From Acetobacteraceae bacterium (lineage in GTDB: Bacteria; Pseudomonadota; Alphaproteobacteria; Acetobacterales; Acetobacteraceae): 57,353 nt of DNA. How positions within the stretch are numbered: the first letter of the stretch is position 1; each line of letters begins with the position of its first letter. The position numbers were made by a program, and so were the translations under genes. The stretch covers positions 1 through 57,353 of the forward strand of contig JANXTL010000046.1 in assembly GCA_025352375.1 (NCBI GenBank), written 5' to 3'. The notes below the pieces were generated by a model. That model was given only the letters and a program-made list of their open reading frames with translations, did no database searches and was not told the DNA's origin. Below are positions 19,538-39,539 of the stretch, piece by piece.

Positions 19538-21517
19538 TTAGTGAATCGCCGCCCAAACCTTGCGCTTCAGCGCATAAGTCAGGCAGGCCATGAACCCGAG
19601 GTAAAGGACCACCCGGACGCCCAGCGCCTTGCGTTCCGTCTCCTCAGGGTTGGACGCCCAGTAAAGGAACGTCACCACGTCCTTCGCTTGCTGCGCGATG
19701 TTGCTCGGCGAGCCATCAATGAACGTCACCTGCCCGTCATGCAGCGGCTGCGGCATGGCGATCTGGTGGCCGGGGAAGTACATGTTGAAGCTCATCCCGT
19801 CCTGCATCTTAAAGTCCTTCGGCGCGTCGCCGAAGCCGACCATCAGGGCGTAGATGTAGTCCGCACCATGTTCGCGGGCATTGACGATCAAAGAAAGATC
19901 CGGCGGCAAGGCACCGTTGTTGCCTGCACGGGCAGCCAGATCGTTCTGGAACGGAGAGCGGAACTGATTGGCCGGAGTCCCCTGCCCTTCCTTCGGTTCA
20001 CCCGCGTCGTTCAGCCCCTGCGGAACCGTCACGGCGGCAGCGATCCCCTTGATCTGCTCCGGAGACAGGCCGATGCCGGCCAGGTCGCGGTAGTGCAGGA
20101 ACTTCATCCCATGGCAGGCGGCGCAAACCTCGGAATAGACTTTGAAGCCTCGCTGCGCGGACGCCATGTCGACGGTGCCGAACACGCCATCGAAGCTCCA
20201 TTTCTGCTCCGGCATCTTCGGCTCCGCCATCTCCGCGCGAGCCGGCTGCATCGCCGCCAACCCGAAGACGATGGCGACCAGCGCGGCGATCGCGCCTGAC
20301 CGAGCCACAACCGGATTGCTGATGCTTTCCGGCAGCGGCAGTGGACGCTCGATCTTACCGAGGATCGGCAGGATCACGAGGAAGTGGGCAAAGTAGTAAA
20401 GCGTGGCGACCCGGCTCAGGATGACCCAGATGCCTTCCGGCTTGTGCGCACCGCAAATGCCCAGCACGACGAACGAAATCACCCACAACCAAATCACAAC
20501 GCGGTAAATCGGACGGAAGCGCGCGCTGCGCACCCGGGACGTGTCGAGCCAGGGCAGAATGAACAGCACCAGGAGGGAGCCGAACATCATGCACACGCCG
20601 AGCAGTTTGTTCGGGACCGAGCGCAAGATGGCATAGTACGGCAGGAAGTACCATTCCGGCACGATGTCCGCCGGCGTTTGCAACGGATTGGCCGGAATGA
20701 AGTTATTCGCGTCGCCCAGGAAATTCGGCATGAAGCAGACGAACGCCGCCCAGATCATAAGGAACACGCAGACGCCCACGCTGTCCTTGATGGTGTAGTA
20801 CGGGTGGAACGGCACAGTGTCCTGCGGCGACTTCACGTCGATGCCCAGGGGGTTGTTGGACCCCACGATGTGCAGCGCGGCGACATGCAGGAAGATCACG
20901 CCCACCAGCACGAACGGCAGAAGGTAATGCAGCGCGAAGAAGCGGTTCAGCGTCGGCTGATCGACCGAGAACCCGCCCCACAACAGGGTCACGATGTACT
21001 TGCCGACAACCGGGAAGGCGGAGAACAGGTTGGTAATGACGGTCGCGCCCCAGTAGGACATCTGGCCCCAAGGCAGCACGTAGCCCATGAACGCCGTCGC
21101 CATCATCAAGATCAGGATGATCACGCCCAGCATCCACAATAACTCGCGCGGGGCCTTGTAGGACCCGTAGTACAGGCCGCGGAAGATGTGGATGTAGGTG
21201 ACGATGAAGAACATCGACGCGCCGTTCTGGTGCACATAGCGCATCAGCCAGCCGTAGTTCACGTCGCGCATGATGTGCTGCACGGACCCGAACGCGAGAT
21301 CGGCATTCGGCTGATAGTACATCGCCAGGAAAATACCGGTCAGCATCATGATCATCAAACAGACCATGGCGAGCGCGCCGAAGTTCCAGAAATAGTTGAA
21401 GTTCTTGGGAGTCGGGAAAACCCCGTACTCCTTTTGCATCATCGTGAAGATGGGCAGACGCGAATCGACCCAGTTGATCACCGGGTTGGCGAAATCGCTT
21501 TTATGCAGGCCGGCCAT
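19538..21517 (-). CDS. fbcH: Fused cytochrome b / cytochrome c1 of the bc1 complex
   Basis: One 659-residue frame encodes two bc1 subunits. Residues 1 to about 400 are cytochrome b: haem-ligand pairs H96/H110 and H197/H211, and the quinol-site PEWY motif at 287-290. Residues 406-428 form an internal signal sequence ([20 protein letters not shown], then RA|EM). From about 430 the protein is cytochrome c1, with the haem c motif C465-A-A-C468-H469, a likely Met ligand near M588 (HQIAMPQP) and a C-terminal membrane anchor ([16 protein letters not shown]). The arrangement is that of fbcH in Bradyrhizobium, where a polyprotein is processed into b and c1. No stop or frameshift lies between the halves. 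It follows the Rieske gene by 32 bp. Confidence 0.96.
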
Positions 21518-31207: not shown

Positions 31208-32149
31208 CTAGAGGATGAGGCCTTTGCGCAGCAGCCCGTGGACGCCCTTTTCACCATTCACCGTCTGGGTGACGTGGAAGTCCACCGCGAGGGAGCAGAA
31301 CTGGTAGGCTTGTTCCCGCGTCAAGTTGGTGCGGCTGGTAATGAAGGCGATCATCTGGCGCAGCGCCTGCTTCATCGCCTGATCCAGATCTTCGTTCATG
31401 CCCATGCTAATATAGTGGGTCGGGGTTTCCGCCCGAGGGTAGCTTAGGCCGGCGGATTTGTGCAGCGTGAAGGTGAAGGTGCCGGTCAGGCAGATCTCCA
31501 GCGCGTTGATGCAGACCTCCCCATCGCCCTGCACCCCGTGCCCGTCGCCGGCCGAGAACAACGCCCCTTCGGCCCAGACGGGCAGGAACAGGGTGGAGCC
31601 CTGCGTCAGCTCCTTATTATCGAGGTTACCGCCATGCTCCCGCGGCTGGATGGTCGAGATCGTGCCGTAGCTCGGCGGTGGGGCAACGCCCATGACCCCG
31701 AAGAACGGCGCGAGCGTCAGTTCCGTGCCCCAGGGCAGCTTGCACACGCCGCGTTGGCGGTCGACCGGAATGTGCGAAAGGTATTTTTCGGGAAAATCTT
31801 CCGGCAGGGTCCCGACCAACGGCCGAAAGCCGCAATAGCCCCAGTCGCAGCCGACCTCGATCTTGTCGATGCTAACTTCGAGCATGTCGCCGGGCATGGC
31901 ACCCGCGATGGCGACCGGCCCGGTCAGGATGTGACCGGGGCCGCGTGGCGGATTGGACGCATGAATCGCCGCCAGCGCCGGGGGCACGGTCAGGCCGGCC
32001 CCCGCTGGCGGCATGACCTCCGGCCCGCCGGAGACACACTCCAGCACCACCGTGTCACCGGAGTTCACCGTGATCAGCGGCGGAAAGGCGGCATCGAACA
32101 TGCCCCAACGGATGGTCTCGGGTGTCGAGGCAATGCGATGCGTGGCCAT
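31208..32149 (-). CDS. Acetamidase/formamidase family amidohydrolase
   Basis: A 313-residue enzyme of the FmdA/AmdA fold, which hydrolyses small amides such as formamide or acetamide to ammonia and the acid. Family segments are GHILTGPVAIAGAMPGDMLE and CDWGYCGFRPLVGTLPEDF. Others are the metal/active-site region PREHGGNLDNKELTQGSTLF and GDGHGVQGDGEVCINALEI. The length is that of the short acetamidase group. It begins 15 bp after tatA on the same strand; that pairing is unusual, and the protein itself has no signal peptide. Substrate not determined. Confidence 0.9.
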   Translation of the reverse strand: MATHRIASTPETIRWGMFDAAFPPLITVNSGDTVVLECVSGGPEVMPPAGAGLTVPPALAAIHASNPPRGPGHILTGPVAIAGAMPGDMLEVSIDKIEVGCDWGYCGFRPLVGTLPEDFPEKYLSHIPVDRQRGVCKLPWGTELTLAPFFGVMGVAPPPSYGTISTIQPREHGGNLDNKELTQGSTLFLPVWAEGALFSAGDGHGVQGDGEVCINALEICLTGTFTFTLHKSAGLSYPRAETPTHYISMGMNEDLDQAMKQALRQMIAFITSRTNLTREQAYQFCSLAVDFHVTQTVNGEKGVHGLLRKGLIL

Positions 32150-32164: not shown

Positions 32165-32410
32165 TTAGCGCGTGGTGGTGGTGGTCGTGGTCTCGCGAGG
32201 CGTATTGGCCGGGTGCGCGCCAGGCAGGGTGCCAGCCGGCTTGTCGGCGCTGGCTTCCATCGAAGCGTCGTCCGGCTCTGCCATGTTCTTCTTGAAGGAT
32301 TTGATGCCCTTCGCGAAGTCGCCCATCAGGCTGCTGACCTTGCCGCCGCCGAACAGCAGCAGGACGACCACCAGCACCAACGCCCAGTGCCATATGCTTA
32401 AACCGCCCAT
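32165..32410 (-). CDS. tatA: TatA-type twin-arginine translocase subunit
   Basis: An 81-residue TatA/E protein that polymerises to form the Tat translocation site. It has one N-terminal membrane helix ([18 protein letters not shown]), the hinge G, and an amphipathic helix ([20 protein letters not shown]). The acidic tail ends with seven threonines (ETTTTTTTR). No tatB or tatC is nearby, so it is an orphan copy or tatBC lies elsewhere. Rieske PetA and HpnM in this window are likely Tat clients. It may be co-transcribed with the amidase gene downstream. Confidence 0.9.
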
Positions 32411-32506: not shown

Positions 32507-33709
32507 TCAGATCGCGCCGATGTCCCGCAACCGCGCCATCTCGACGTCATCCAACCCCAGCATGCACCGGTAAATCTCGTCGTTATGCGCCCCCAGCGCT
32601 TCCCCAAGCCAATGAACGGCGCCGGGGGTTTCGCTCAAGCGGGGGACGAGATTAGGGACCGCCAGTTCGCCCACACGTGGGTCCTGCACCCGTAAAATAT
32701 TGCCGCGGGCGGCGTAGTGGGGGTCCTCGAAGATTTCGTCGATCGCGTAGACCGGGCCGCACGGCACCTGGTTGGTTTCGCAGACTTGCATCAAATCGGT
32801 GCGGTCATAGGTCGCGGTCCACGCTGCGACCGTTTCATCGACCTTTTCCCGATCGCGTTCCCGATGCGCCAGCGGACCCCAGCTTTCCAAACCAGCCAGA
32901 TCGGGTCGCCCCATCGCCTCGGCAAGTCGGGAAAAGATCTTGTCGTTGGTGCAGGCGATGGCAATCCAGCGGCCGTCTTTTGTGGGGTAATGGCTGTGCG
33001 GCACCACGTTCACCGTGCCCGGACCCATGCGCTGGCGCACGAATCCTTTGTGCTGAAACGCCGGAGCCAACTCGTCCAGGATGCGGAAAATCGGCTCGTA
33101 AAGCCCGATATCCACCATTTGCCCGCGCCCGGTTTTCTCGCGCGCCTGCATGGCCAGCAAGGTGCCCATCGCGCCGTAGATGCCTGCCATATAGTCGGGG
33201 ATGGTCGCCGAGCCCGGTGTGACCGGGGCGCGATCCGGGTACCCCGCCAGGAATGACAGGCCACCGAACGCATTGCCGATGCGGCCGAAGCCTGGGCGGT
33301 CCTTGTACGGACCCGTCTGCCCATAGCCGGAGATGCGGACCATGATCAGGCGTGGATTGACCGCCGAAAGAATGTCCCAGCCGAGGCCCCATTTCTCCAG
33401 CGTGCCAGGCTGAAAATTCTCGATCAGCACGTCGGATTTTTCGACCAGGCGCTTCAGCAGCGCCACGCCATCGGGTTTGCGCAAATCCAGTGTGATGCAC
33501 TTCTTGTTGCGCGATTCAGACAGCCACGGCAGCGAATCGCCGCACTCGGTCATGGTCCCGAACCGGCGCGTGGCATCGCCGACGCCGGGCAACTCGACCT
33601 TGATGACCTCGGCGCCGAACTCACCTAACTGAGTGGCGCAAAACGGCCCCGCCAGGAACGTTGCGATATCGAGCACGCGGCATCCTTGCAGCGCCTGAAC
33701 GTCGATCAT
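32507..33709 (-). CDS. CaiB/BaiF family class III CoA-transferase
   Basis: A 400-residue family III CoA-transferase, which moves CoA from one thioester to another carboxylate without free intermediates. The catalytic Asp is D172 in PDYMAGIYGAMG. Other signatures are LDIATFLAGPFCATQLGEFGA, KKCITLDLRKPDG and DVLIENFQPGTLEKWGL. ATG 33709 overlaps the stop of the CitE-like gene (ATGA); the longer open frame to 33988 is in that gene. It is the last gene of a five-gene leftward operon. Its likely task is to activate the operon's acid intermediate as a CoA ester, from succinyl-CoA or a similar donor; the substrate is unknown. Confidence 0.92.
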   Translation of the reverse strand: MIDVQALQGCRVLDIATFLAGPFCATQLGEFGAEVIKVELPGVGDATRRFGTMTECGDSLPWLSESRNKKCITLDLRKPDGVALLKRLVEKSDVLIENFQPGTLEKWGLGWDILSAVNPRLIMVRISGYGQTGPYKDRPGFGRIGNAFGGLSFLAGYPDRAPVTPGSATIPDYMAGIYGAMGTLLAMQAREKTGRGQMVDIGLYEPIFRILDELAPAFQHKGFVRQRMGPGTVNVVPHSHYPTKDGRWIAIACTNDKIFSRLAEAMGRPDLAGLESWGPLAHRERDREKVDETVAAWTATYDRTDLMQVCETNQVPCGPVYAIDEIFEDPHYAARGNILRVQDPRVGELAVPNLVPRLSETPGAVHWLGEALGAHNDEIYRCMLGLDDVEMARLRDIGAI

Positions 33710-34557
33710 TGAATGCCTCCGCGTGCCAGCACCTGCCGAGCACGTTGCACGATGGGATAATCGATGAACTGGCCATCGAGCTGGATCGACGCCAGGCCCT
33801 GTTTTTCCGCCTCGTCGAAGGCCGCGATCACCCGGCGGGCTTTCGCGACGGTCGCATCGTCCGGGGTGAACGCGGCGTTGGTGACCGCAACCTGATCGGG
33901 GTGAATGCACATCTTGCCCTGGAAGCCGAGCGCGGCCGCGCGTTGCGCCGACAGCGCGAAGCCTTCGGTATCCCGCAGATCCGCCCACACCGTATCCAGC
34001 GGTGAATCCATCCCCGCCGCTCGGCAGGCCACCACACAGGCAGCGCGATGCGGCGACAATTCCGATTCATCCCGTGACCAGATCATACCGAGGTCGAGCG
34101 TAAAATCCCCTGCCCCGAACGCGACCGTGCGTGCCCGCGTGCCGGCACCGCAGATCGACGACAGAGCCTGAATGCCCTTCGCCGTTTCGATGATCGGTAT
34201 CAGATCGATACCGCCTTGTTTCAGCCCGCGTTCCCGCTCCAGCGAGCCGATGACCCAGTCGGCGGATTTCAATTCATCGGCGCTTTCGGTTTTTGGCAGG
34301 ACGATGCCGTCCAGACCCGCATGCACGACTGCGGCCAAATCGGCAAAGCACCACTCGGTGGAAAGCGCGTTCACCCGCACATAAAGCTTGCCGTGGCGGG
34401 GCGCTTTATAGGTCGCCACCACCAGCGCGCGCGTCGCGGTTTTTTCGCTGATGGCAACGGCGTCTTCCAGATCGAGGATGACTCCGTCGGCCGGTAAGGT
34501 CAGTGCCTTTTCGACACGCCTTGCATGGTTGCCCGGTGCGAACAGGAGGCTTCTCAT
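33706..34557 (-). CDS. HpcH/HpaI-CitE-like aldolase/lyase
   Basis: A 283-residue TIM-barrel lyase of the CitE/malyl-CoA lyase group. It has RSLLFAPGNHARRVEKAL, the Mg2+-region GVILDLEDAVAISEK, KLYVRVNAL and LPKTESADEL. Further conserved blocks are IPIIETAKGIQAL, FGAGDFTLDLG and GFQGKMCIHPDQV. Such enzymes cleave or form 3-hydroxy-acyl-CoA such as (S)-malyl-CoA, beta-methylmalyl-CoA or citramalyl-CoA. It overlaps both neighbours by four bases (LLM enzyme before, CoA-transferase after). Next to a CoA-transferase it would cleave the CoA-activated product into acetyl- or propionyl-CoA plus an oxoacid; this is inference. Confidence 0.9.
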   Translation of the reverse strand: MRSLLFAPGNHARRVEKALTLPADGVILDLEDAVAISEKTATRALVVATYKAPRHGKLYVRVNALSTEWCFADLAAVVHAGLDGIVLPKTESADELKSADWVIGSLERERGLKQGGIDLIPIIETAKGIQALSSICGAGTRARTVAFGAGDFTLDLGMIWSRDESELSPHRAACVVACRAAGMDSPLDTVWADLRDTEGFALSAQRAAALGFQGKMCIHPDQVAVTNAAFTPDDATVAKARRVIAAFDEAEKQGLASIQLDGQFIDYPIVQRARQVLARGGIQ

Positions 34558-35921
34558 TGTGTGGCCTTCCGAGCGATGTGGTAGTCGCGGGCGCGGGGGA
34601 TGTGGAGGCCGAGGTTTTCTCGGAGCGTGGTGCCGCGATAATCCTTCTGGAACAACCCGCGCCGTTGCAGTTCCGGCACCAGTAGACGTACGACGTCTTC
34701 GTACGAACCCGGCATGTGCGTCGCGGCCAACACGAAACCGTCGCAGGCGGGGGCGACGAACCATTCTTCCATCTGATCGGCGACCTGCCTGGGGGTGCCG
34801 CAGAACATTTTGTGTTCTTTCACGGTGCCGCGGCCGGAGATTTCGACGAAATCGCGCACGGTGGGGTTTTTGTGGCCGGAGTGCTGGATCACGCGTTCCC
34901 GGAAGCCGTGCCAGCTGAAGCCGGCGAGCTCTTCGTCGCTGAATGGCTCGTCGTAGCCTTTCGCGCCGAAATCGTAGTTCAGAACCTCGGAGATCAAGAC
35001 CAGCGCGTCGACCGGGCGCGCGGTCGCTTCGACGATGGCGCGTTTTTCTTGCGCGGCTGCCTCGGATTCCGCGACGCAGACGTAACAGGCCGGCGCCATA
35101 TGCACGGACGCGGGATCGCGGCCGCCGGCGGCGACTTGTTCCTTAAAGGCCTTGTAAGCAATCTTGCCGGCTTCGAGGTTGTGATGGATGACGAACACCA
35201 GCTCTGCCCATTTCGCCGCGAAGGCCTGCCCGCGGCCGGACTGCCCAGCCTGAATCAGCACCGGATGCCCCTGCGGCGAACGCGGCACGCTGAACGGCCC
35301 TCGCGACTTGAAATATTTTCCAGCATGATCGAGCCGATGAACCATCGAGCCGTCTGCGAAACGTCCAGACTCTTTGTCCAGGATGAGAGTATCATCGTCC
35401 CAGGTATTCCAGTGGCCCATCACCACGTCCATGAATTCTTCGGCGCGATCATAGCGCGCGTCGTGCTCCATGTGTTCGGCGTGGCCGAAATTCGCGGCCT
35501 CGGCGCTGTTCAGCGAGGTCACGATGTTCCAGGCAACGCGGCCCTTCAGCATCAGATCCATCGTCGCGAATACGCGGGCGACGTGATACGGCTCATAATA
35601 CGTGGTTGAGTATGTCGTCCCCAGGCCCAGCTTCGACGTCGCCATGCCCATCGCCATCAGCAATGTCGACGGGTCCATTTTCACTGCGCGCACGCCGGCG
35701 TTGATCGCTTCCAGATGGTTGCCGGTGTAAAGATCGGGCAGCGCCAAGCGGTCGTCGAAAAACGCCATCTGGATCTTGCCGTCTTCCAGAATGCGTGCGA
35801 TACGCTGGTAGTATTCCGGCGTCATGAAATCCATCATGGTCGATGGATGCCGCCACGATCCCGGCAGGTTGGAACAGTTTTGCGCCTGTAAGAAGGCGAC
35901 AAGGGTCATCATGCGATTCAT
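34554..35921 (-). CDS. LLM-class flavin-dependent monooxygenase (NtaA/SnaA/DszA group)
   Basis: A 455-residue bacterial-luciferase-fold monooxygenase that uses reduced FMN from a partner reductase. Group features are WRHPSTMMDFMTPEYYQRIA, the insertion KLGLGTTYSTTYYEPYHVAR and GRVAWNIVTSLNSAEAANFG. Further blocks are RYDRAEEFMDVVMGHWNTWD and PVLIQAGQSGRGQAFAAKWA. Relatives open or desulfurise polyamino acids, dibenzothiophene sulfone and similar compounds. No flavin reductase gene is in the operon, so reduced flavin must come from elsewhere. It starts 9 bp after the DUF4387 gene and overlaps the CitE-like gene. It is probably the oxygenating step of the pathway. Confidence 0.9.
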   Translation of the reverse strand: MNRMMTLVAFLQAQNCSNLPGSWRHPSTMMDFMTPEYYQRIARILEDGKIQMAFFDDRLALPDLYTGNHLEAINAGVRAVKMDPSTLLMAMGMATSKLGLGTTYSTTYYEPYHVARVFATMDLMLKGRVAWNIVTSLNSAEAANFGHAEHMEHDARYDRAEEFMDVVMGHWNTWDDDTLILDKESGRFADGSMVHRLDHAGKYFKSRGPFSVPRSPQGHPVLIQAGQSGRGQAFAAKWAELVFVIHHNLEAGKIAYKAFKEQVAAGGRDPASVHMAPACYVCVAESEAAAQEKRAIVEATARPVDALVLISEVLNYDFGAKGYDEPFSDEELAGFSWHGFRERVIQHSGHKNPTVRDFVEISGRGTVKEHKMFCGTPRQVADQMEEWFVAPACDGFVLAATHMPGSYEDVVRLLVPELQRRGLFQKDYRGTTLRENLGLHIPRARDYHIARKATQ

Positions 35922-35930
35922 GGCAAAACC

Positions 35931-36242
35931 TCAGATCGGTAAATCGACATCCAGCAGCGGGGCATGCTGCTGGCAACCGTAGACATCCGTATCCCCAAAT
36001 TCACCGGCCGGAACCAGGCGCGGGAACGTCGCCTTGAACGCCAAGGCGGCGTCGTAGGGGGTGAACAGCACGTGCTCTGCTGGCACATTATACAATCGGG
36101 CAAAAAGCTCAGGGCATAAAACGCCGCTCGCTTTCACCTTTCCATACGTGGAAGAATCGTCGAACACCACGTCGATGGTCAGTTCGAACGGCCCGGCATT
36201 CTTGCTTTTGCAGACGCGGGCGGCATCGCGGATCAGGGTCAT
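35931..36242 (-). CDS. DUF4387 family protein
   Basis: A 103-residue small protein of DUF4387, found almost always next to an AtuA-like DUF1446 gene, as here (4-bp gap after it). The start IRDAARVCKSKNAGPFELTI and the middle CPELFARLYNVP are family words. No catalytic motif can be pointed out and no signal peptide is present. It probably forms the small subunit of the DUF1446 protein or regulates it. Confidence 0.85.
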   Translation of the reverse strand: MTLIRDAARVCKSKNAGPFELTIDVVFDDSSTYGKVKASGVLCPELFARLYNVPAEHVLFTPYDAALAFKATFPRLVPAGEFGDTDVYGCQQHAPLLDVDLPI

Positions 36243-36246
36243 TTTT

Positions 36247-37617
36247 CTACATCATCTCGTATTCGATGGGGAACATCTCGCGGGGGTCGGCGACATCGGC
36301 GACGTGGTAGACGCTGAAGCGGTAGACCGGCCCGACCTCGATATCGGACGGTGAGAACGGAAAGGCCATGTTGCCTTCGCGGCACAAGCGTCCGGGGAAA
36401 TCGGTGTGCAGCATGTTGGCCCGAGCGACACCCAACACAGCGCTGGCCATTTCCTGGGATTGTTGGCCCACAACCTCGATCACGAACCCGACCTCGTGCG
36501 GGACAGCGTTACGGACGGGTTCGCGTTCGGCCATCACGCCATCGCGGCCGTAGACACGAAAGCCCAGCTTATAGGTATCCGGAGAGGCGCCGAACGCGGC
36601 GGCCTTCACTGCGACCTCCGACCGCACGGACGCCAAGAACGAATCCAACCGCCCGATCAGCAGAGGGTCGCGCGTCCCGGCGATGCACATGGCGCGATAA
36701 CCCGCCAGTTCCACTCCCTCCAACTTCACCGTGTATTGCGGCGCCGGCGTCCATTTCATGCCTGAAATCCGCACGGCGCGATCGCTGACCGCATCGAACC
36801 GGCAATCGGAAGTATCCAGCATCCCGCCGGGCTCGATGTGATGGATCGGGCTGGCGTTTTCGTGCAGCGAATGGTTTGCGATCGACAGCGGCGTGCAACG
36901 GCGGATCGGATTGCACGGCTCGCATTCCATGTGATCCTCGCGCACGGTCACGAACAGCGAATCATGCCCCTTGGGAATCGATGGCGTGGCGCCGCATTCC
37001 AGCATTTTCCCCGCGTACCAGGCCGGTGCCGGCGGCAGCTGCGCCCGTATGCACATCGCCGCCCAGGGCGCGGGGTCCGAACTGCGGCCGGCCAGCACGA
37101 CCTGGGCGCCGTTGTCCAACGCCTCGATAAACGGTTCCGGCCCCATCATCCCGACAATGCGGGTGGACCGGTCCACCACGGCGTCGGTCAGCTCCGGCTG
37201 ATGCGCCAGCGGGTGAATACCGCCGGCTGCGATGCGGCGTTTGATCTCCGCCGGGCTTTGCTCCGCGTGAATCAGCGCCATCTTGAAGTGCAGCCCATCC
37301 TCGCGCGCGATCTCCCGCGCCATATCGGCGACCAGGTTCAAATGGGGTTCGCCGCCCGCGCCGCCGCAGGTGCCGATCACCATCGGAATGCCCGCCTCGA
37401 TCGCCGCGTGCAGCATCAGCCGCAAATCCCGCCGGATCGAAATGGGGGAGCAGAACGGCTTCCCCACCCCCAAATAATGCGGCCCAGGATCGGAGCTGCC
37501 GCCGTCCACCCCGATCATGTCCGGCTTGCGCGCCATGCCGGCTTTCAGGGATGCCTCGGGGAACCCGTAACCCAGGATGGCGCTGGTCGAGAGCAGGCGG
37601 ATTTCCTTGGCGGACAT
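36247..37617 (-). CDS. AtuA-like acyclic terpene utilization protein (DUF1446)
   Basis: A 456-residue protein of the DUF1446/AtuA family. It has ILGYGFPEASLKAGM, the Gly/Asp-rich DMIGVDGGSSDPGPHYLG and a second Gly loop (VIGTCGGAGGEPHLNLV). Downstream are ALDNGAQVVLAGRSSDPAPW, the His-rich HHIEPGGMLDTSDCRF and the final VGQQSQEMASAVLGVARANM. AtuA from Pseudomonas is needed for citronellol/geraniol use, but its biochemical role is unsettled; many homologues sit in other catabolic operons. It is the first gene of the five-gene leftward operon and is divergent from a class II aldolase remnant. Confidence 0.9.
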   Translation of the reverse strand: MSAKEIRLLSTSAILGYGFPEASLKAGMARKPDMIGVDGGSSDPGPHYLGVGKPFCSPISIRRDLRLMLHAAIEAGIPMVIGTCGGAGGEPHLNLVADMAREIAREDGLHFKMALIHAEQSPAEIKRRIAAGGIHPLAHQPELTDAVVDRSTRIVGMMGPEPFIEALDNGAQVVLAGRSSDPAPWAAMCIRAQLPPAPAWYAGKMLECGATPSIPKGHDSLFVTVREDHMECEPCNPIRRCTPLSIANHSLHENASPIHHIEPGGMLDTSDCRFDAVSDRAVRISGMKWTPAPQYTVKLEGVELAGYRAMCIAGTRDPLLIGRLDSFLASVRSEVAVKAAAFGASPDTYKLGFRVYGRDGVMAEREPVRNAVPHEVGFVIEVVGQQSQEMASAVLGVARANMLHTDFPGRLCREGNMAFPFSPSDIEVGPVYRFSVYHVADVADPREMFPIEYEMM

Positions 37618-37705: not shown

Positions 37706-38033
37706 ATGATCTCGTGCTTCTGCTGCCAACCGGGCAGCCTCGGCCGTCGCGCCCTTTTGGCGAGCGCTGTAGCGTTCGCGGCCATACCGGCGCGCGCCGA
37801 AACAACCCCCGCATCGGGCGGCTCCGTTGACCCCGCGGTGATCGAGGACCTCGTTGCCGGCGACCGATAGGCTGATCCGCAATGCCGCTTTGGGCAAAGC
37901 TTTGGCAACCAAGCTGGGACAGCACTCCATCATACTGATGCGCGGCCACGGTTCCGTCGCCGCCACCAAAACGAACGAGGCACGGGTCGGACGCCCGTGG
38001 GAGCTGTGGAAGCGCCGTGCCATGGCGAAATAG
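37706..38033 (+). pseudogene. Class II aldolase/adducin family pseudogene
   Basis: From ATG 37706, with GGGAGGA five bases upstream, a secretion leader (LGRRALLASAVAFAAIPARA) is followed by SVDPAVIEDLVAGDR and a TAG at 37868-37870. VIEDLVA-x-x-R is the opening of class II aldolase/adducin proteins. In the next frame, from about 37872, the sequence reads IRNAALGKALATKLGQHSII, LMRGHGSVA and RPWELWKRRAMAK to a TAG at 38031-38033. These are the middle and the very end of the same family. About half of the normal 240-260 residues is gone and the pieces are out of frame. The ribosome site survives, so the decay is probably recent. It is divergent from the AtuA-like operon and may once have belonged to it. 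Confidence 0.72.
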
Positions 38034-38034
38034 C

Positions 38035-38430
38035 TCAGCCCAAACAAGCCGCGTTCAGCATCCCCAGCACCACCGAGACCGACGCCAGAAAGATCCCCTC
38101 GGCCATGTCGCCCTTCACCAGGGCGGCACTGGCGTCGCGGCGCAGCAAGCGCATCGCGGCAAAGCACAACAACTGCACCACCAGCGCCACCGCAGCCGTT
38201 ACGACCATATCGGCCAGCCCCCCGCTGTGGTTGATCGCCGACGCCAACGGCAGCGCGAACCCGATCATCGCCCCGCCTAACGCCAGCGCCGTGGCGCTGT
38301 TGCCGGAACGGATCAGCTCCCATTCCTTGATCTGGGTCGCGAGCGTGTAAGCGGCCAGAAATGCCGCGAACAACAGGACCGCCGTACCGAAATAGCTCAA
38401 AAACAGCAGTATGGCGTTGGGATCGCTCAT
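38035..38430 (-). CDS. DUF350 (UPF0719, YjfL-like) membrane protein
   Basis: A 131-residue inner-membrane protein with four hydrophobic helices (about 8-28, 45-67, 73-95 and 107-130). DUF350 words are the ALALGGAMIGFALPLASAI block and DMAEGIFLASVSVVLG. It overlaps the glutathionylspermidine synthase-like gene by four bases and comes third after the YgiB-like gene. The same trio (DUF1190, GSP-synthase-like, DUF350) occurs in enterobacteria as yjfM/yjfC/yjfL. Function unknown; a membrane-bound role with the ATP-grasp enzyme is inferred. Confidence 0.85.
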   Translation of the reverse strand: MSDPNAILLFLSYFGTAVLLFAAFLAAYTLATQIKEWELIRSGNSATALALGGAMIGFALPLASAINHSGGLADMVVTAAVALVVQLLCFAAMRLLRRDASAALVKGDMAEGIFLASVSVVLGMLNAACLG

Positions 38431-39539
38431 GGCGGGCTCCGGAAGTAATGCGGGACGAAGCGGCTGGTGTCGCGGGTGATGGGGGTCGAGTCCTCACGGA
38501 TGCCGATGCCGTGCGATTTGCCGGCGACGATCCAGGCACCGATCACCGGGTAGTTGCCACCGATTTTCGGCAATGGCCACCAGAGTTGGTGGACATATCC
38601 CTCCGAACCGTACGGCCCTTCGGTCTTGATGCCGGGGGCGTCGATGTTGGCACCCTCCCGCCCGAACAACGGCTTGGCGATTTCCAGCTGGCCGGTGCGG
38701 TTGGGTTCGCGGAACGCGGGCAGCAGGTTGGGGTGATTGGGAAACAGCTCCCACAACAACGCCAGGATGCCCTTGCTGGACAGCAGCAACCGCCACGCCG
38801 GCTCGATCCATTGGGTCGCCGCACTGGCGACGTTGCGGCCGAATTCGTCCCGCAACAGGAACTCCCACGGGTAGAGTTTGAACATGGCGCGTATCTCGGT
38901 CCGGTTCATGTCGACAAACCGGCGCCCATCCCAGCCGATTTCGTCGATGAACAGAAACGGCGCGTCCAGCCCCGCCTGCATCGCCGTGTCGCGGAGGTAG
39001 TCGGTGTTACCCTTATCCTCCGCCGTGTCGCGCATGCAGGTGAAATGCACCTGTTTCGGCAGCCGCAGGCTGCCCCAGGCAGCGATCAGTGCTTCATGGA
39101 TGGAGTTGAACTGGTCCGCGTCGGGATAGGCGCATTTCAGCCACTCCCACTGGACCACGCTGCTTTCGAACAGCGATGTCGGGGTGTCGGCGTTGTATTC
39201 CAAAAGCTTGGGCGGGCCCGTCCCGTCCCAGCACAAATCCATGCGGCCGTACAGGCTGGGTTCCCGCCGTTCCCAGGATCGCACCAGGATTGGCCACGCG
39301 CCTTCGGGGATGCCCAGCTCGACGCGCTTGTTGAACCGAACCGCATGATCCGCCGCCAGTTGGGTCAACCGTTCCAGCTCAGTCACGGCATCGTCGAGAA
39401 CGTCCACCTCGGCAGCGGTAAATTCCCAACAAGCCGTTTCGTCCCAATAGGGCTCTCCCGCGATTTCAGCATACGAAAAGCCGAGGTCGCGCGCGCGATC
39501 GCGCCAATCGTGCCGGGGCGGGATGCTATGGCGCCGCAT
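38427..39539 (-). CDS. Glutathionylspermidine synthase-like ATP-grasp ligase (YgiC/YjfC type)
   Basis: A 370-residue stand-alone ATP-grasp domain related to the synthetase half of Gss. Signature segments are GRMDLCWDGTGPPKLLEYNA, DTPTSLFESSVVQWEWL and IGWDGRRFVDMNRTEIRAMF. Further blocks are KYPWEFLLRDEFGR-like sequence (here LYPWEFLLRDEFGRN), KGILALLWELFPNHPNLLPA and KPLFGREGANI. The Gss amidase half is missing, as in YgiC. It lies 5 bp after the YgiB-like gene and overlaps DUF350. The true peptide substrate of YgiC-type enzymes is not established. Confidence 0.9.
   Translation of the reverse strand: MRRHSIPPRHDWRDRARDLGFSYAEIAGEPYWDETACWEFTAAEVDVLDDAVTELERLTQLAADHAVRFNKRVELGIPEGAWPILVRSWERREPSLYGRMDLCWDGTGPPKLLEYNADTPTSLFESSVVQWEWLKCAYPDADQFNSIHEALIAAWGSLRLPKQVHFTCMRDTAEDKGNTDYLRDTAMQAGLDAPFLFIDEIGWDGRRFVDMNRTEIRAMFKLYPWEFLLRDEFGRNVASAATQWIEPAWRLLLSSKGILALLWELFPNHPNLLPAFREPNRTGQLEIAKPLFGREGANIDAPGIKTEGPYGSEGYVHQLWWPLPKIGGNYPVIGAWIVAGKSHGIGIREDSTPITRDTSRFVPHYFRSPP

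Follow-up and report, generated by a model that had tools for sequence, protein, structure and literature searches.

What pathway do five tightly packed genes of an Acetobacteraceae bacterium encode, when they set a flavin monooxygenase beside two different kinds of putative carbon-carbon lyase? The genes lie in a stretch of 57,353 nucleotides (contig JANXTL010000046.1 of assembly GCA_025352375.1, a genome of 5.1 Mb in 355 contigs), referred to here as the window. They encode an AtuA-like (DUF1446) protein, a DUF4387 protein, an LLM-class flavin monooxygenase, a CitE-like lyase, and a class III (CaiB-like) coenzyme A (CoA) transferase. The reading favored here, with a probability of roughly 0.45, is a catabolic operon in which monooxygenase action would give rise to a hydroxy acid resembling citramalate. 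This acid would be cut either by the AtuA-like/DUF4387 pair, which resembles the citramalate lyase CmlAB, or, as its CoA thioester, by the CoA-transferase and the CitE-like lyase. An earlier interpretation made from the letters alone (the sequence-only reading) had proposed an uncharacterized route of oxidation, CoA activation, and cleavage, and as a whole it is partly supported.

Operon organization

The five genes run from 37617 to 32507 without larger gaps and are packed as an operon (Table 1). The coordinates and the close spacing described in the sequence-only reading hold: gaps of 4 and 9 bases separate the AtuA-like, DUF4387, and LLM genes, and 4-base overlaps join LLM to the CitE-like gene and the CitE-like to the CaiB-like gene. 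The starts of the CitE-like and CaiB-like genes were set at inner ATGs, read from the sequence. The five family labels given earlier are also sound, with all five Pfam scores above the gathering score. When the five proteins were scanned with NCBIfam, the sole model passed was the NtaA/DmoA subfamily model TIGR03860, by the LLM enzyme (488.6 bits vs a cut-off of 279.7), and the AtuA-like and DUF4387 proteins had no match of any kind. Promoter and terminator scans of the operon region gave no excess over shuffled sequences.

Table 1. Positions in the window of the operon genes and of the divergent gene remnant beside them
Feature	Position	Strand	Basis
AtuA-like (DUF1446) protein, 456 aa, CmlA homologue	36247..37617	-	PF07287 75.4 bits; PDB 9erq_A E 2.8e-112; 9evf fold TM 0.91
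DUF4387 protein, 103 aa, CmlB homologue	35931..36242	-	PF14330 114.2 bits; PDB 9erq_B E 1.6e-22
LLM-class flavin monooxygenase, 455 aa, NtaA/DmoA family, DszA the nearest solved relative	34554..35921	-	TIGR03860 488.6 bits; PDB 5tlc 366 bits; PF00296 142.6
CitE-like CoA-ester lyase (malyl-/citramalyl-CoA lyase superfamily), 283 aa	33706..34557	-	PF03328 159.2 bits; PDB malyl-CoA lyases and CLYBL
Class III (CaiB/BaiF) CoA-transferase, 400 aa	32507..33709	-	PF02515 391.4 bits; PDB 9br7 E 1.5e-60
Class II aldolase gene remnant, divergent, signal-like N-terminus	37706..38030	+	tblastn with the full-length L037 and L040 copies

Relationship of the AtuA-like/DUF4387 pair to citramalate lyase

DUF1446 and DUF4387 had been regarded as families without settled biochemistry. 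This view does not hold, since both have a relative of solved structure whose deposited names are citramalate lyase subunits A and B (CmlA and CmlB). In the PDB, the AtuA-like protein has a single match up to E 1 (9erq_A/9evf, subunit A), and the DUF4387 protein has a single match up to E 10 (9erq_B, subunit B). An AlphaFold2 model of the AtuA-like protein, built with 22 sequences, reached a predicted local distance difference test score (pLDDT) of 87.3, with residues 408-418 under 50. Its fold search returned one match below E 0.001, again 9evf (template modeling score, TM, 0.91), the title of which names a citramalate lyase-ADP-pyruvate complex. An alignment of 22 AtuA-like proteins has 103 invariant columns, and at 67 of these the same residue is present in CmlA and in its relatives from E. 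coli, Klebsiella, and Prevotella. Judged by sequence and predicted fold, the pair is related to an enzyme with a solved structure and is not a set of proteins without biochemistry.

The genes around other CmlA-type proteins give this similarity a metabolic context. In E. coli, the CmlA-type gene lies behind the glutamate mutase and methylaspartate ammonia-lyase genes and before those of a symporter and a class I fumarase. The Prevotella gene has a similar setting: it likewise follows the mutase and ammonia-lyase genes and has fumarase-type genes nearby. The methylaspartate route, as given in an excerpt of one account, includes an (S)-citramalate cleavage step (PMC8473912), and both gene settings fit that step. 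In an excerpt of another source, a DUF1446 gene beside an ammonia-lyase gene was recorded as encoding a protein of unknown function (PMC4682846). In the open-licence literature, no mention of DUF4387 was found, and none of the work on citramalate lyase since 2018 treats CmlAB, as judged by title or start of abstract.

A second, more distantly related AtuA-like/DUF4387 pair is encoded elsewhere in the genome (L058, contig C307, 4559-7474), where the two genes are in reversed order and adjoin an amidohydrolase-family gene. Similar neighbors accompany pairs of this type in other genomes of the genus, which represents another use of the lyase family.

Conservation of the five-gene block

A match at E 1e-20 or better was present in 38 of 78 relative genomes (own genome included). 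Orthologous loci were examined in 22 cases, all from other genomes, with 64-95% identity, and 19 of them belong to the same genus. The conservation of gene order on which the sequence-only reading depended was found in 14 of the 22, where all five genes occur on the same strand in the same order. The AtuA-like, DUF4387, and LLM genes are together in 21 of the 22, the exception being L036, in which the contig ends after DUF4387. Reduced versions comprise L050 and L052, with four genes and CaiB absent at the locus, as well as L046 and L048 of the same genus, with the first three genes alone. Three loci from other genera (L054, L055, and L056) also have three genes; the contig of L054 ends there, and LLM precedes AtuA in L055 and L056. 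The sequences flanking the block differ between genomes, so the five-gene block coheres while its surroundings change. The gene clustering is not chance. A conserved, catabolic-looking unit had been proposed from the letters, and the proposal stands, including the point that the CaiB and CitE families fit the activation of an acid followed by cleavage.

Two separable modules around one monooxygenase subfamily

A wider comparison used the best 80 of 531 AtuA-encoding stretches from a genome scan (hereafter named loci). AtuA was called in 78 of these, and L119 and L142 were dropped for missing calls. Named relatives whose AtuA-like proteins are 92-95% identical carry the label Acetobacteraceae. 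The counts that follow are based on a simple codon-usage gene caller and BLAST labels, in which single gene calls can err, and they carry no correction for kinship. DUF4387 lies beside AtuA in 76 of the 78 loci. An LLM gene (>55% identity) is located at most three genes from AtuA in 50, absent in 19, and absent near a locus end in 9. Within six genes of AtuA, a CaiB-like gene more than 50% identical was found in 13 loci and a CitE-like gene in 12, and every one of these is an LLM locus (13/13 and 12/12). The 13 CaiB loci include seven from the window genus and four from Belnapia, as do the 12 CitE loci. This concentration implies that few independent events lie behind the counts. It is the survey of 299 genomes and the rearranged loci described below, rather than these counts, that carry the link between CitE/CaiB and LLM.

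The 299-genome survey covered the order with the own genome left out, and scoring was limited to the best 5 to 8 candidates in each genome, such that matches may be missed. An LLM match lay within 6 kb of 38 of the 44 AtuA matches, 19 of the 36 CitE matches, and 21 of the 43 CaiB matches. For the 59 LLM matches outside the genus, the neighbors within 10 kb were AtuA only (25), none (12), CaiB only (7), CitE only (6), AtuA and CaiB (4), CitE and CaiB (3), or all three (2). Twenty of the stretches compared were chosen by hand. Rearranged loci include L153 (from Neoroseomonas marina, the same stretch as L234) and L235, which hold all five genes in one region as CitE, CaiB, then LLM, AtuA, and DUF4387, with other genes between and one on the opposite strand. 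In Belnapia, the order is CaiB-LLM-receptor-AtuA-DUF4387, with a different CitE-family gene upstream. The CaiB genes linked to LLM in other genera are 52-74% identical to the window CaiB; the latter has no relative above 41% in its own genome (45 matches), so these LLM-linked relatives are unlikely to be random paralogues.

In the LLM tree (near-copies and named loci duplicating unnamed contigs omitted), 10 proteins from AtuA-less loci form one clade (100/99), and the window genus forms a clade of its own with 18 rows (100/100). Eight of the 10 AtuA-less loci have CitE, PrpD-like, or CaiB genes nearby; L241 and L242 have none in the stretch seen. Taken together, two separable modules accompany one LLM subfamily: AtuA-like plus DUF4387, or CitE-like and/or CaiB without AtuA. 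The window operon joins both. The five-gene set is not the natural unit, since each module occurs with the LLM subfamily without the other.

Other genes recur in these neighborhoods. A flavin reductase is not encoded in the operon, and three PF01613 genes are present elsewhere in the genome. Among the 78 named loci, a flavin reductase gene lies within six genes of AtuA in 10, every one an LLM locus. An annotated Methylobacterium plasmid has the order LLM, flavin reductase, AtuA, and DUF4387, and an annotated Diaphorobacter plasmid has LLM, AtuA, DUF4387, and MmgE/PrpD with a divergent flavin reductase. MmgE/PrpD proteins (a loose BLAST label) were found within six genes of AtuA in 16 of the 78. 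Parts of the locus set also share TTT, TRAP, MFS, and ABC transporters, a lactonase-like MBL protein, a HisD-like dehydrogenase, and an HpaB-like monooxygenase. These neighbors point to no single compound, so inferring a substrate from them was rejected and none is named here. The LLM paralogues of the own genome (57-58% identity) were likewise considered as a substrate clue, and their gene settings were too varied to give a lead.

Two of these recurring neighbors were recorded in further detail. In the AtuA-less loci L224, L225, L227, L229, and L238, CaiB either adjoins a frame of 504-516 aa or is one gene away from it; the L227 frame, the only one of the five scanned, belongs to the 4-hydroxyphenylacetate 3-hydroxylase (HpaB) family. 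CitE-like genes are present in the L224, L225, L229, and L238 stretches and not in L227. Genes of the histidinol dehydrogenase (HisD-like) family recur in the LLM-AtuA loci L122, L123, L126, L159, L120, and L088 (L122 scanned), and some of these loci have SDR and TRAP-transporter-like genes nearby, as judged by eye or from one scan of L126.

CitE-like lyase and CaiB-like CoA-transferase

The RVN, ETA-G, G-DF, and DG-ID stretches (Arg, Glu, Asp, and C-terminal Asp), which we take to be catalytic in the superfamily, align between the CitE-like protein and both CLYBL and malyl-CoA lyases. The scores of the CitE-like protein fall below the equivalog cut-offs for RipC (179.8 vs 375) and citE (229.6 vs 443.4). 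The CaiB-like protein covers positions 1-366 of the 366-position PF02515 profile and has an Asp, presumably the catalytic residue, that aligns with that of 9br7 and 10uh. Its nearest PDB entry, 9br7, is a succinate-hydroxymethylglutarate CoA-transferase, and the protein remains below the substrate-specific equivalog cut-offs, the best being the succinate-glutarate model (255.4 vs 750). As far as similarity indicates, the relatives named for both proteins are dicarboxylate enzymes.

Proposed pathway and alternative explanations

The operon may serve the catabolism of a compound that is probably carboxylated. The DszA-like monooxygenase would oxidize or open this substrate with reduced flavin from a reductase encoded elsewhere in the genome. 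The product, directly or after further steps, would be a 2-hydroxy dicarboxylic acid resembling malate or citramalate. With a nucleotide in its site and no use of CoA, the CmlAB-like pair could then cleave this acid to a 2-oxo acid and a short-chain acid. The equivalent cleavage could proceed through a CoA thioester, by way of the CoA-transferase and the CitE-like lyase, yielding an acyl-CoA and a 2-oxo acid. Homology, fold, conserved gene order, and the exchange of modules are the observed basis of this pathway; we infer every reaction, the order of the reactions, and the action of both lyases on the same product. A broader version is more tentative. It posits an aerobic pathway, so far undescribed and widespread among Alpha- and Betaproteobacteria. 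There, a DszA-like monooxygenase may feed a CmlAB-type C-C lyase that uses a nucleotide and needs no CoA, CoA-transferase/CitE may act as an interchangeable substitute for this lyase, and the window operon, having both, may cut one intermediate in two ways. What appears to be new is the combination of a DszA-like monooxygenase with CoA enzymes and a lyase type that are each already known.

Several observations weigh against the favored reading. The 36 remaining invariant AtuA-like columns are not common to the whole CmlA group, and 23 of them carry another residue in CmlA itself (two lie beyond the compared stretch), so the substrate need not be citramalate. In the AtuA tree, CmlA and the E. 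coli protein group together with a Shimodaira-Hasegawa-like approximate likelihood ratio test (SH-aLRT) support of 100. The AtuA-like relatives fall outside the CmlA clade, in a separate set of 88 rows that likewise has an SH-aLRT support of 100. This tree (110 rows) was made by a quick method with SH-aLRT support only and gave long-branch warnings; named loci duplicating unnamed contigs were omitted, and the window protein is represented by its 91-95% identical relatives L036-L040. The LLM label requires 12 changes on it, implying that the AtuA-LLM link was repeatedly gained or lost. Outside the genus, 25 of the 31 AtuA-LLM loci have no CitE or CaiB match within 10 kb. Hydantoinase A-like genes lie beside AtuA in 7 of 81 loci of the same clade, none of them with LLM (for the hydantoinase A and B labels, one representative of each was domain-scanned). 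The Klebsiella plasmid relative of CmlA adjoins dehydrogenase genes and a fumarate hydratase gene, with no methylaspartate genes in the stretch seen. DszA, the nearest solved relative of the monooxygenase, acts on a sulfone. None of the five proteins reaches an equivalog cut-off in NCBIfam. Finally, no paper describing 9erq/9evf was found among the matches listed in the open-licence literature, so the CmlAB reaction is taken from the deposited names.

Some of these observations bear on a competing explanation, which seems doubtful. The AtuA-like/DUF4387 pair may be a nucleotide-using early enzyme that activates or opens the substrate in the manner of hydantoinase A/B, followed by LLM, with only CaiB and CitE cleaving the carbon skeleton. 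ADP in the solved relative (9evf), the hydantoinase A-like genes beside AtuA in some loci without LLM, and the 23 clade-invariant residues that differ in CmlA are all consistent with such a role. However, 9evf also contains pyruvate, a cleavage product, and bears a lyase name, and most of the invariant columns are common to the CmlA group. Moreover, the many AtuA-LLM loci without CitE or CaiB mean that some other cleaving enzyme would be required.

Somewhat less probable still is that two pathways share one operon by chance or regulation, namely LLM with AtuA-like and DUF4387, and CitE/CaiB for an unrelated itaconate- or citramalate-type acid. CitE and/or CaiB genes occur near the LLM subfamily in other genera, with or without AtuA and in varied orders, and near AtuA, the CitE and >50% identical CaiB genes are confined to loci with LLM, albeit in few lineages; both patterns argue against separate pathways. 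The loci that retain the first three genes alone (L046 and L048) or have no CaiB at the locus (L050 and L052) favor separate pathways, as do the LLM matches with AtuA as their only partner (25 of 59) and the 17 of 36 CitE and 22 of 43 CaiB matches with no LLM match within 6 kb.

The suggestion of terpenes in the sequence-only reading found no support, and an acyclic terpene (Atu-type) pathway is very improbable and was rejected: the Pfam family name AtuA (75.4 bits vs a cut-off of 22.8) speaks for it, but a member of this family elsewhere in the same genome, on another contig, scores far better (468.6 bits), the five genes include none for an acyl-CoA carboxylase or dehydrogenase, and the nearest solved relative of the AtuA-like protein is a citramalate lyase.

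Comparison with known systems

Among the matches listed in the open-licence literature, no described pathway has exactly this gene set, as the sequence-only reading had supposed. Compared with CmlAB, both subunits are homologous, their genes are adjacent, the predicted fold is the same, and 67 of the 103 invariant columns are common to the CmlA group. However, the window AtuA-like relatives form a separate clade with 23 differing invariant residues, and their partner is a flavin monooxygenase, whereas that of the E. coli and Prevotella CmlA-type genes is methylaspartate ammonia-lyase. No methylaspartate pathway genes were found among the genes around the window operon. The LLM enzyme belongs with DszA/NtaA/DmoA by its TIGR03860 score and its nearest solved structure, DszA. 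Unlike the DszA system, the window operon has no dsz-type genes, and the flavin reductase is outside the operon, although it lies beside the LLM gene in some relatives.

A class III CoA-transferase adjoining a CitE-like lyase is shared with the itaconate/citramalate CoA route (RipC/Ccl). However, no itaconyl-CoA hydratase gene is among the five, the CitE-like protein falls far below the RipC cut-off, and the window operon adds a monooxygenase and a CmlAB-like pair. The pyrimidine Rut pathway also has an LLM enzyme, and the relative L143 has a RutF-like flavin reductase (130.6 bits, below the cut-off of 254.75). The window LLM protein scores only 51.2 bits against the RutA cut-off of 498.3, and no other Rut gene is among the five. 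In contrast to the Atu terpene cluster, no other atu genes lie beside the window AtuA-like gene. In the open-licence literature, the phrase acyclic terpene utilization AtuA was met only in work on iron deficiency in Bacteroidetes.

Class II aldolase remnant and neighboring genes

The sequence-only reading had noted a dead class II aldolase gene at the divergent promoter and suggested a lost sixth enzyme. The remnant itself is confirmed. What survives is the N-terminal part of the gene (37706-37867, +) and the C-terminal part (37857-38030, +), read in two different frames and lacking the central portion, so an enzyme was lost here. Three of the five closest relatives (L036, L037, and L040) have a full-length gene next to the operon, in divergent orientation. 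The L037 copy matches PF00596 with 104.9 bits, and the full-length copies start with a signal-like stretch that, by eye, bears twin arginines. A tblastn search of 125 loci with the L037 aldolase matched only these three and their duplicates L083 and L084 (the same contigs as L036 and L037), and this confinement to a small subgroup of nearest relatives makes a lost core pathway enzyme unlikely. The enzyme appears to be accessory and particular to these relatives.

Several other genes of the window were recorded. Downstream of the operon, a small frame that looks TatA-like by eye (32165-32410, -) is followed by a gene of the acetamidase/formamidase family (31208-32149, -); this second gene has a 70% relative on another contig of the same genome (L071). 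Just past the aldolase remnant, a DUF350 gene overlaps a glutathionylspermidine synthase preATP-grasp gene (38035-39539, -). Farther away, a single reading frame (19541-21517, -) fuses both parts of cytochrome b with cytochrome c1 domains.

Implications

If the proposed pathway is correct, the DUF1446/DUF4387 family would gain a second role in physiology, in addition to that in the methylaspartate route, and a subfamily of unassigned DszA-like monooxygenases would be tied to concrete downstream chemistry. The exchange of CoA-independent and CoA-dependent lyases around one monooxygenase would also mean that the intermediate should be a substrate of both lyases.

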